Shown here piece after piece: positions 1,675-3,804 of a DNA stretch of 5,106 nt. The position numbers and the translations under genes were made by a program. The notes below the pieces were generated by a model. It had not been told where the DNA came from, ran no database searches, and saw only the letters and a list, made by a program, of their open reading frames with translations. Numbering within the stretch: the stretch's first letter is position 1; each line of letters opens with the position of its first letter. Origin of the DNA: Spirochaetaceae bacterium (GTDB taxonomy: Bacteria > Spirochaetota > Spirochaetia > Treponematales > Treponemataceae); the NCBI GenBank assembly GCA_017646305.1, contig JAGCMR010000295.1:1-5106 (forward strand), written 5' to 3'.

Positions 1675-2556
1675 TTACTCCTTTTTTAGGTCAAGAAGCT
1701 CACGAATTTGATCAATGGACTTACCTGCACCAGCTAAAATTCGCCGTACACTTCCTTCAGGAAGGTTTAAAACATCTTCTACCATCTTATTTGATGGTTT
1801 TAAGTTAAATGTTTTGTGCCTGTGTCTTAAATACTCTAGCTTTTTCTTTTGGTTTTCATATTTTCTAGAGATTACATCATATTGGTAGCTTTCTTCTGCC
1901 ATATTTGATAATTCCATAGCATATTGTTGGCAAATGATATAAGACATGTTTACCCGATTTTCTAAGTGCTTGTGAATTTCTAGCTTATCTCTCATCTTTT
2001 CTTCAATCACCTTAAGATAATGATCAAATTCCTTTGTGGAGATGCCCGTGAGGGTAGGAATTGTTTCTGCAACCTCATTAGTAAGCAAGTAATACGACTT
2101 TAATGATAAAACCAAAAGTGTAATTGCTTGTTTTTTTGTTAATGGTTCCTTCAAGTTGATGTTCTTATCATCAGATGAGTTGTAATCTGGTGGTAGTTCA
2201 CATACCGTGACTTTTTTTTCATTTGGTTCTGTATAATCCAAGTACTGTTGAGTATCAAGGATATTTTGGAAGTATTGCTGTTTTATATTTAGCCGCTTCC
2301 AGCTTTTATATCTTAGCCGTACAATGGAAGTGTAGTAGGTAAGAAATGTAGAGCCAGAATTTTTATAATTATCTAGCATCTTTGGAATGTGGGGATGGAT
2401 CCAGATGAGAAAATTACTGATTTCATCTTCTGGTAATTGTTCCATACAATAATACCTGGGCGACTTGAAAATTTCAGCTAAGAGGTGGGATACTGCCTCC
2501 TCCTTTGAAATTTCCTGGTTTTTAAAACGCACATAAATTTTGTTGACAAATAGCAT
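1675..2556 (-). CDS. Uncharacterised sigma-factor-like/HTH regulator, spirochaete type
   Basis: I cannot assign this to a named family. It is a soluble, Lys/Asn/Tyr-rich protein of 293 aa with no signal peptide or membrane helix. (Numbers count from the upstream ATG at 2562; subtract 2 for the preferred start.) Residues about 40-90, including FLIWIHPHIPKMLDNY and an aromatic/basic segment (YYTSIVRLRYKSWKR), resemble the helical core of sigma-70 region 2. Residues about 141-195 are helical and could be region-4-like, with a possible turn at LTGISTKEF. The C-terminus has a likely helix-turn-helix, KPSNKMVEDVLNLPEGSVRR (255-274), patterned like the 'PTN-x-EIA-x-x-LGIPKGTV' type. A Lys/Glu-rich helix (232-250) may be coiled coil. 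The start is placed at 2556 because AAGGAGG lies 7 nt upstream of it, but only 1 nt upstream of the in-frame ATG at 2562. The gene is AT-richer than the peptidase and phosphoesterase genes, is first in an operon with rdgB, and is preceded by a sigma-54 promoter. Alternative: a non-sigma DNA- or RNA-binding protein. Confidence 0.85.
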   Translation of the reverse strand: MLFVNKIYVRFKNQEISKEEAVSHLLAEIFKSPRYYCMEQLPEDEISNFLIWIHPHIPKMLDNYKNSGSTFLTYYTSIVRLRYKSWKRLNIKQQYFQNILDTQQYLDYTEPNEKKVTVCELPPDYNSSDDKNINLKEPLTKKQAITLLVLSLKSYYLLTNEVAETIPTLTGISTKEFDHYLKVIEEKMRDKLEIHKHLENRVNMSYIICQQYAMELSNMAEESYQYDVISRKYENQKKKLEYLRHRHKTFNLKPSNKMVEDVLNLPEGSVRRILAGAGKSIDQIRELLDLKKE

Positions 2557-2588: not shown

Positions 2589-2605
2589 TGCAAGAATCGT
2601 GCCAA
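2589..2605 (-). promoter_or_regulatory. Sigma-54 (RpoN) -24/-12 promoter of the regulator-rdgB operon
   Basis: The minus strand reads TTGGCACGATTCTTGCA from 2605 to 2589. It matches the sigma-54 consensus YTGGCACG-N4-TTGCW at every specified position, including the invariant GG (2603-2602) and GC (2591-2590) with the required 10-nt spacing. Counting 12 nt from the -12 C places the transcription start near 2578. This gives a short leader of about 22 nt that contains the AAGGAGG site and leads to the ATG at 2556. Sigma-54 holoenzyme needs an AAA+ enhancer-binding protein, so the operon is probably switched by a signal-responsive activator. No competing sigma-70 promoter stands out above the A/T background. 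Confidence 0.85.
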
Positions 2606-2805: not shown

Positions 2806-3804
2806 TTACTTTAAGGCTTGTTCAAATGATGCTAGAAGTTTTGGGGTTAATTCTTCTATGGTACCTGGTGTACTACAGCCTGCAGCGTTTTTATGGCCTC
2901 CACCGCCAAAATTTGCTGCGACAGAACTTACATCTACTTCGTCCTTGGAACGAAGACCCATAGTGCAGGTTTGTTCTGTTTCTTGACGAAGGAATACAAC
3001 GACTTCAACTCCTGCACAAGACAAAAGCAGCTGATAAAGACTATCAGAATCCCTTCCTTCACCACCATAACGCCGAGTATCTTCTTGGGTTTCGTAGGTA
3101 ATAATAAGTTTTCCATCGAAATATTGCGTGGCTCGTTCCAGCAATACTCCTAATAACTTTCTGGTGGAAAAAGGTTTTCCACTTGTCATGGTATCATAGG
3201 TGGTACGAGGACTTACACCTGCTTTAACCATACGAGCGGCTGCCATAAAGATATCACTGGAATTTTCTTCTAGGAAACGGAAATAACCTGTATCTGTAGA
3301 TAGTCCAAAGAAAAGGACCTGTGCTGTTTCTTTATCTAAAGGGCCGATTAATTTTTCGTATAGCTGCTGAACGAGATATGATGTTGCAGGTGAAGTTGGT
3401 TCAATGATATAGGCCTGGGATTCTGGAGATGAAGTTTTGTGATGGTCTATGAAAAAAGTAGGAAGGGTCGACATATCCGTAATAAGGGTATCTTGTGAAA
3501 AGATTTCACCAATCCGCTTAAATTCTCCACAATCTACGATGATTAGGGCTGTTTTTTTTCCTGTTTGGAGCAGGGTAGCCTGTCGTCCGAAAAATTTTTC
3601 ATAATCCTTGATTTCAGTACGCTTGAAAGGGCCTGCTGAAATCAGCTGATAGGTTTTTCCCATTTTTTTCAGAATAGCTGCAATCCCCAAGGATGAGGCA
3701 ATACAATCTCCATCAGGTTCCTTGTGTCCCACAACAATGAAACTGTCGTAAGATTGCACAAAGTCCTTGAATTGTTGTGCCTGTTCATCTGTTATTATTT
3801 TCAT
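2806..3804 (-). CDS. nrnA: DHH/DHHA1 phosphoesterase, NrnA-type oligoribonuclease / pAp phosphatase
   Basis: This 332-aa cytosolic Mn-dependent phosphoesterase has the size and domain order of NrnA, which degrades 2-5-nt RNA fragments and dephosphorylates 3'-phosphoadenosine 5'-phosphate (pAp). The N-terminal DHH domain shows GHKEPDGDCIAS (26-37; H27, D31, D33), VDCGEFKRIG (90-99; D91), FIDHHKT (118-124; the DHH signature) and GLSTDTGYFRF (167-177; D171). The C-terminal DHHA1 domain carries GLRSKDEVDVSSVA (283-296) and GGGGHKNAAG (300-309), the substrate-binding glycine loop. All the expected metal and substrate residues are present. The ATG at 3804 overlaps the TGA of the upstream peptidase gene as ATGA and has GAGGA (3815-3811) at 6-nt spacing, which points to translational coupling. 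A terminator follows directly. The pAp versus nano-RNA preference, or a cyclic-dinucleotide role as in GdpP/DhhP relatives, cannot be settled from motifs; there are no membrane or PAS/GGDEF domains, so GdpP itself is excluded. Confidence 0.92.
   Translation of the reverse strand: MKIITDEQAQQFKDFVQSYDSFIVVGHKEPDGDCIASSLGIAAILKKMGKTYQLISAGPFKRTEIKDYEKFFGRQATLLQTGKKTALIIVDCGEFKRIGEIFSQDTLITDMSTLPTFFIDHHKTSSPESQAYIIEPTSPATSYLVQQLYEKLIGPLDKETAQVLFFGLSTDTGYFRFLEENSSDIFMAAARMVKAGVSPRTTYDTMTSGKPFSTRKLLGVLLERATQYFDGKLIITYETQEDTRRYGGEGRDSDSLYQLLLSCAGVEVVVFLRQETEQTCTMGLRSKDEVDVSSVAANFGGGGHKNAAGCSTPGTIEELTPKLLASFEQALK

Follow-up and report, generated by a model that had tools for sequence, protein, structure and literature searches.

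In Borrelia burgdorferi, RpoN binds to the −24/−12 site of rpoS and activates this gene, with Rrp2 as the putative activator, and a G-to-T change at −24 strongly lowers rpoS expression (PMC3037356). In Leptospira interrogans, the EbpA-RpoN system is likewise a small sigma-54 regulon, and its three confirmed targets are amtB and two lipoprotein genes, with no sigma genes among them (PMC12655853). In Treponema denticola, Rrp2, a response regulator, is a predicted sigma-54 activator, and the kinase of Rrp2, Hpk2, uses a PAS domain to sense oxygen (PMC12070737). Sigma-factor control in Treponema is little described.

The window analysed here, by which we mean the whole stretch of 5,106 nucleotides, carries a predicted sigma-54 promoter that would drive a two-gene operon, encoding a diverged sigma-70-family (ECF-like) regulator (ORF3) and RdgB. 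Quite probably, this operon is one branch of a conserved treponemal stress cascade under sigma-54, the other branches being two full alternative sigma factors, called sigma-A and sigma-B here, and the small heat-shock chaperone Hsp20. As in the Borrelia RpoN-RpoS system, a −24/−12 promoter would precede an alternative sigma-70-family gene and respond to an NtrC-like activator (PMC3037356). However, a single sigma gene is controlled there, whereas the treponemal set comprises two ordinary sigma factors, ORF3 with rdgB, and Hsp20; on paper the two systems work alike, but the treponemal one has several branches, and among its members is a sigma-like protein of an unfamiliar kind, with rdgB. The Leptospira regulon is of similarly small size, but differs in its targets. 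Our computational support covers the promoter, its conservation, the order of the operon, the regulon and the distant kinship of ORF3 to sigma factors. Among the literature matches listed, judged by title or the start of the abstract, we found no report of such a regulon in Treponema.

On the minus strand of the window, positions 2605-2589 read TTGGCACGATTCTTGCA in the 5′ to 3′ direction. This 17-mer matches the sigma-54 consensus TTGGCACGNNNNTTGCW at every specified position and has the exact GG-N10-GC spacing, as the original prediction had claimed for a consensus-perfect element. Based on the sequence and on the conserved sites described below, the −24 element TTGGCACG was assigned to 2598-2605 and the −12 element TTGCA to 2589-2593, both on the minus strand. 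The strict motif did not occur in any of 1000 dinucleotide shuffles of the window and the looser pattern TTGGCAYRN5TGCW was present in 7 of 1000. The GG-N10-GC spacing by itself is uninformative, since it was observed 21 times in the window against a shuffle mean of 19.2. A sigma-70-like match (9 of 12 positions) overlaps the element at 2605-2576, as would be expected if the site were a sigma-70 promoter, or the site of another factor, that resembles −24/−12 by chance. We consider this very improbable: sigma-70-like sites are fewer in the window than in shuffles (8 versus 13.4), and the sigma-54 consensus letters, although partly fixed by the matrix used to find them, persist in sequence-distant loci far above shuffles. 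The sigma-54 promoter predicted from sequence at 2605-2589 is well supported.

Counting 12 nt past the −12 C places the putative transcription start at 2578 on the minus strand, in agreement with the start that had been proposed near this position. A ribosome-binding site, AAGGAGG, is located at 2564-2570 on the same strand, 1 nt before the ATG at 2562, which is the start in the program-made ORF list, and 7 nt before the ATG at 2556. Protein starts in most close relatives align with the position of 2556, which together with the 7-nt spacing indicates that the gene most likely spans 1675-2556 and has a leader of about 22 nt. Upstream of the promoter, on the same strand but outside the predicted transcript, lies nrnA (2806-3804), which according to Pfam encodes an NrnA-like DHH/DHHA1 phosphoesterase. 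It is a conserved neighbour: in 89 of 111 loci the stretch read contains it in this orientation. A sequence scan revealed a terminator-like hairpin (2763-2804, not assigned to a strand) that separates nrnA from ORF3, so that ORF3 probably needs a promoter of its own. The other neighbours in the window encode an M24 peptidase and a methyltransferase (Pfam). The region directly upstream of the promoter (2606-2760) is very A/T-rich and contains TAAAT-like repeats, which recall the direct repeat to which BosR binds at rpoS in Borrelia (PMC3037356).

A genome search detected the ORF3 protein in 203 of the 274 genomes of the bacterial family. We read the loci of 110 of these genomes, 111 loci with the window; as they were taken mostly from the top of the match list, close relatives are over-represented. 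Promoters were counted over the 110 loci (window included) with at least 60 nt of upstream sequence, L033 being too short. An element was called at a weight-matrix score of at least 14 within 150 bp of the start, using approximate frequencies, so these scores rank sites and are not calibrated. By this measure, 93 of the 110 loci harbour the element, and 56 reach a score of at least 19. The threshold of 14 was reached by 7 of 2200 dinucleotide shuffles and by 2 of 364 other ORF frames of the same loci, the latter being stop-to-stop frames of at least 180 aa on both strands and not curated genes. At −24, the T is present in 91 of the 93 sites and G, G, C and A in all 93; at −12, TGC is present in all 93, while the spacer varies. 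Part of this invariance of GGCA and TGC follows from the method, as the matrix by which the sites were selected gives preference to these letters.

The nearest named loci are from metagenome assemblies of Treponema, Spirochaetaceae and Spirochaetales, with protein identities of 75, 70, 57, 44 and 44%, and four of the five are labelled as coming from animal colon or rectum. In all five, the element is present and begins 42-54 bp before the position where the protein is expected to start, and the flanking DNA around it diverges. Outside the bacterial family, 13 of 20 loci have the element as well, at 28-74 bp before the expected start of the protein and in stretches of 44-63% G+C, and the other seven lack it; the shuffle control given above refers to the 110 loci. 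These 20 loci, from genomes beyond the 274, were among the best full-length matches and were scanned over 350 bp. Still more widely, a match to a profile of the ORF3 family was present in 310 of the 394 Spirochaetia genomes sampled; genomes of the bacterial family are part of this sample, and the weakest of the matches might represent ordinary sigma factors. In 17 of the 110 loci no element was found within 150 bp of the start. Three of these have one farther up (L088 at −417, L046 at −211 and L070 at −181), four carry TTTGCAC or TTAGCAC instead, in one (L044) just 83 nt of upstream sequence was available, and in the remaining nine no element was found. The original prediction expected a −24/−12 element that is conserved before orthologues while flanking DNA diverges, and this is the pattern observed. 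The conservation of the element across many spirochaetes suggests that the promoter is real.

The original prediction described the gene behind this promoter as regulator-like. We can extend this claim, as profile alignments identify ORF3 (1675-2556, minus strand, 293 aa) as a distant sigma-70-family protein. The window protein alone matched no Pfam family, and against NCBIfam it gave one weak match at chance level and no match to a sigma family. We built an alignment of 120 rows (A3), consisting of the window protein, 14 database proteins and 105 of the 110 loci (without L033, L047, L075, L112 and L118), in which identity to the window protein goes down to 16%. At E values up to 1, 72 of the 120 members matched TIGR02937, the model of the sigma-70/ECF superfamily (best 1.9e-10). 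Pfam matches included Sigma70_r4_2 (16), Sigma70_r3 (16) and Sigma70_r2 (8), the commonest weak Pfam matches being GerE (24 of 120) and HTH_36 (21 of 120). In a profile search of PDB sequences the first eight matches were sigma factors, with a modest best E value of 0.0043. In hhalign, the ORF3 family aligned with ten treponemal ECF sigma factors at 87% probability (E 3.8e-6, columns 39-209), covering region 2 and region 4 in order. As controls, the reversed profile reached 0.17% against ECF, and the unrelated RdgB, NrnA, methyltransferase and M24 families reached at most 0.18%. The match to treponemal sigma factors of the sigma-A/B type was weak (13%; reversed control 2.8%), and the 14% obtained against FliA-type sigma factors comes from a run with wrongly extracted proteins (L136, L140, L131 and L135).

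When ten relatives were scored singly against TIGR02937, nine matched, the best with 25.3 bits against a cut-off of 42.9, and L036 gave no match; neither these ten nor the window protein reached the cut-off of a curated sigma family. The nine matches extend to residues 276-320, near the C-terminal end, whereas hhalign places region 4 in the middle of the protein. An AlphaFold model based on A3 (pLDDT 87.9, pTM 0.66) is almost all helical; the sigma-like part is followed by a long stretch of helix and then by a short end that resembles a helix-turn-helix. Foldseek searches with two models gave no E value of 0.001 or lower, sigma chains appearing among the rows without significant scores. The best 50 rows of each VIA-align search contained generic long helices and no sigma chains among the matches listed, and searches of PHROGs, of PDB with single sequences and of plasmids yielded nothing useful. 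Since the kinship appears at the level of family profiles and the cut-off is missed, we call ORF3 a diverged relative of the ECF sigma factors and not a member: its parts resembling region 2 and region 4 are ordered as in TIGR02937 proteins, but it falls below the curated cut-off in the ten proteins scored singly and has a long C-terminal extension.

The promoter could also be real while ORF3 has lost its sigma activity and is a sigma-derived DNA-binding regulator, or an anti- or co-sigma factor that modulates sigma-A or sigma-B. The extreme divergence of the family, the low scores of single relatives, the added helical stretch with its second helix-turn-helix-like end, and GerE and HTH_36 as commonest matches would all fit such a role, which we regard as a serious possibility but somewhat less likely than not to be true. 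On the other hand, a mere DNA-binding protein has no need for an alignment that spans sigma region 2 and region 4 in order. ORF3 may still work as a sigma factor, a predicted function.

The second gene of the predicted operon, at 988-1659 on the minus strand, encodes a relative of RdgB of 223 aa. It starts 15 nt after ORF3, and its assignment to the rdgB/HAM1-family nucleotide diphosphatases and to the operon is based on Pfam Ham1p_like (159.2 bits, cut-off 22.5) and on adjacency. With 130.3 bits it missed the cut-off of the NCBIfam equivalog TIGR00042 (145.35 bits), so the substrate range of the window protein is not certain. In 92 of 111 loci (window included), rdgB is the next gene on the same strand, at a distance of −53 to +275 nt; 79 of these 92 loci also have the promoter element, and in 81 the two genes overlap or are less than 60 nt apart. 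In nine further loci tblastn estimates suggest an overlap of 62-107 nt. As adjacency and element are kept together across loci, the combination of sigma-54 promoter, sigma-like gene and rdgB is old and not a quirk of the window. These data support the earlier proposal that rdgB stands under a sigma-54 promoter together with a regulator, and on the gene order we regard the ORF3-rdgB operon as well supported. RdgB is normally a housekeeping enzyme, and a weak sigma-70-like match is present just before the gene at 1694-1665, so rdgB might owe most of its expression to a promoter of its own within ORF3, and its location behind the gene driven by sigma-54 would then be a matter of position only. 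The close spacing and the adjacency kept in so many loci argue against this, and we think it rather unlikely.

The regulon was approached with a motif-first scan for TTGGCAYRN5TGCW (strict sites in what follows) in 13 genomes, five near ones and eight diverse ones of the family. The near genomes contained 25 strict sites versus 7 for a backwards control. In the diverse genomes we found 39 versus 30, of which 13 control sites were in G253, where strict sites numbered 4; in G052 control and strict sites were equal (5 and 5). All 64 strict sites were read and classed by their downstream gene: 14 precede sigma-A (one of them, L197, may be sigma-B), 10 sigma-B, 10 the ORF3 family, 12 Hsp20 and 18 other genes. 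Sigma-70-family genes thus account for 34 of the 64 sites, and the four gene families for 46. The 18 other sites showed no recurrent downstream gene, and 16 of them are inside longer ORFs, the exceptions being L205 and L208. The site at L205 (G009) precedes a gene for a 106-aa protein with, by eye, a signal-peptide-like start. By genome, a strict site is present before sigma-A in 13 of 13, before Hsp20 in 12 (not G004), and before sigma-B and ORF3 in 10 each. At the other three ORF3 genes (G009, G064 and G069) the site differs in its first base, and in G064 it is located 417 bp upstream.

Sigma-A and sigma-B are about 286 and 273 aa long, respectively. In G001 they are full sigma factors with regions 1.2, 2, 3 and 4, nearest to models of the RpoD/RpoS type and under the equivalog cut-offs. 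A sigma-54 element before an alternative sigma-70 gene, the arrangement of the RpoN-RpoS cascade, therefore occurs at sigma-A in all 13 genomes. The same promoter class before ORF3 and the two sigma genes suggests that the switch mainly turns on master regulators. A flagellar or nitrogen regulon was considered and rejected, as the two sigma genes, ORF3 and Hsp20 are the only genes preceded by strict sites in a recurrent manner. It is conceivable that a much wider regulon was made to look narrow by the strictness of the search pattern. The relaxed pattern NTGGCAYRN4YTGCN indeed gave 85 sites in five genomes versus 22 for the control; however, when 62 further regions were read, nine sites were outside ORFs of at least 150 aa and they led to no recurrent gene, which makes a much wider regulon unlikely in our view.

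We conclude that treponemal sigma-54 probably serves a small stress cascade with sigma-family genes as its main targets, resembling Borrelia RpoN-RpoS but branched. In the proposed mechanism, a stress signal would act through an NtrC-type activator on the sigma-54 polymerase, which would turn on the sigma-family genes, and these would spread the response, while RdgB, in the clean-up of damaged purine nucleotides, and Hsp20 would act directly. Here we infer the activity of the promoter, the activator and the stress signal, as well as the sigma function of ORF3. This predicted sigma-54-to-sigma cascade is the larger finding, beyond the promoter and operon calls. An even broader reading makes sigma-54 the 'sigma of sigmas' of treponemes and, as far as the ORF3 branch is concerned, of much of Spirochaetia. 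Its conserved core regulon would be three sigma-70-family genes and Hsp20, one of the three being a new, highly diverged class that is usually coupled to rdgB, and it would replace a missing RpoS/sigma-B general stress response; we see the case for and against this reading as evenly balanced. A named three-branch cascade would give a direct, testable wiring for the treponemal stress response and extend the RpoN-RpoS logic of Borrelia to other spirochaetes. The uncharacterised family found in 310 of the sampled Spirochaetia genomes could be assigned a promoter, a partner gene in the operon and a likely function.

All five genomes with the named loci contain the sigma-54 DNA-binding domain (rpoN), as do 265 of 274 family genomes; since rpoN is nearly universal in the family, its co-occurrence with ORF3 is uninformative. 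In each of the five near genomes, three proteins gave strong matches to the sigma-54 activator domain. Among those of G001, one has the architecture receiver-AAA-Fis and carries a GAFTGA loop, and another has the architecture GAF-AAA-Fis, where a simple search did not detect this loop. For the third activator of the near genomes (L190 and L191), the Pfam scan showed AAA and lid alone and no DNA-binding domain behind the lid. Its length is 229-259 aa when counted from the first ATG, whereas the open frame has 379 aa, so its start may lie farther up. A gapped 4-mer search of the 170 bp upstream of the ORF3, sigma-A, sigma-B and Hsp20 promoters did not find a shared enhancer site and returned mainly A/T-rich pairs.

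In the genome that we take to be T. denticola ATCC 35405 (G043), a scan with a further, looser pattern gave 12 sites versus 8 for the control. Seven of the 12 were read and products were named by eye: one site precedes a peroxiredoxin-like gene, one an Hsp20-like gene and one a gene for a 506-aa protein, two have no recognisable gene and two are inside ORFs. At the gene named by eye as peroxiredoxin-like (L327), a consensus sigma-54 element is located about 110 bp upstream. Perfect elements of the form TTGGCACGAAAGTTGC[AT] occur at L331 (G043) and L336 (G045), where the next ORFs downstream have 23 and 100 aa, respectively, and no recognised product. The sigma-A, sigma-B and ORF3 genes of G043 have the altered elements TTAGCATG, TTAGCACA and TTTGCACT, and the sister genome G045 retains TTGGCATG before sigma-A (L352). 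Before ORF3, sigma-A and sigma-B, the T. denticola-like group carries another letter in place of the first G of the −24 GG (TTTGCAC, TTAGCAC, TTAGCATG; L112, L103, L118, L121, L353, L355 and L358), possibly through a shift in sigma-54 preference or through decay. As a G-to-T change at −24 strongly lowers Borrelia rpoS expression, the ORF3 promoter of this group may function weakly or no longer at all, and this speaks against a strictly universal arrangement.

In T. denticola arrays, the sigma-70 gene TDE0937 was upregulated 2.8-, 21.8- and 14.0-fold by heat, oxygen and osmotic downshift, respectively, and the Hsp20 gene TDE1029 9.5-fold (9.8 in another table), 8.5-fold and 6.7-fold (PMC2965109). 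The peroxiredoxin gene TDE0011 was reported to be upregulated under oxygen and osmotic stress and in blood (PMC3914990). By product and position, the G043 genes would correspond to the TDE loci of these array studies.

In the 1,139,633-bp genome G037, presumably T. pallidum, no match to ORF3 was found, and the pattern used for G043 gave 14 sites, near the 12 of the control. Of four sites read, two are inside ORFs, one precedes a sigma-70 gene and one a gene whose start, by eye, is similar to that of a Dps/ferritin protein. The −24/−12-like elements before the sigma-70 gene and the gene with the Dps/ferritin-like start are at L339 and L340/L354.
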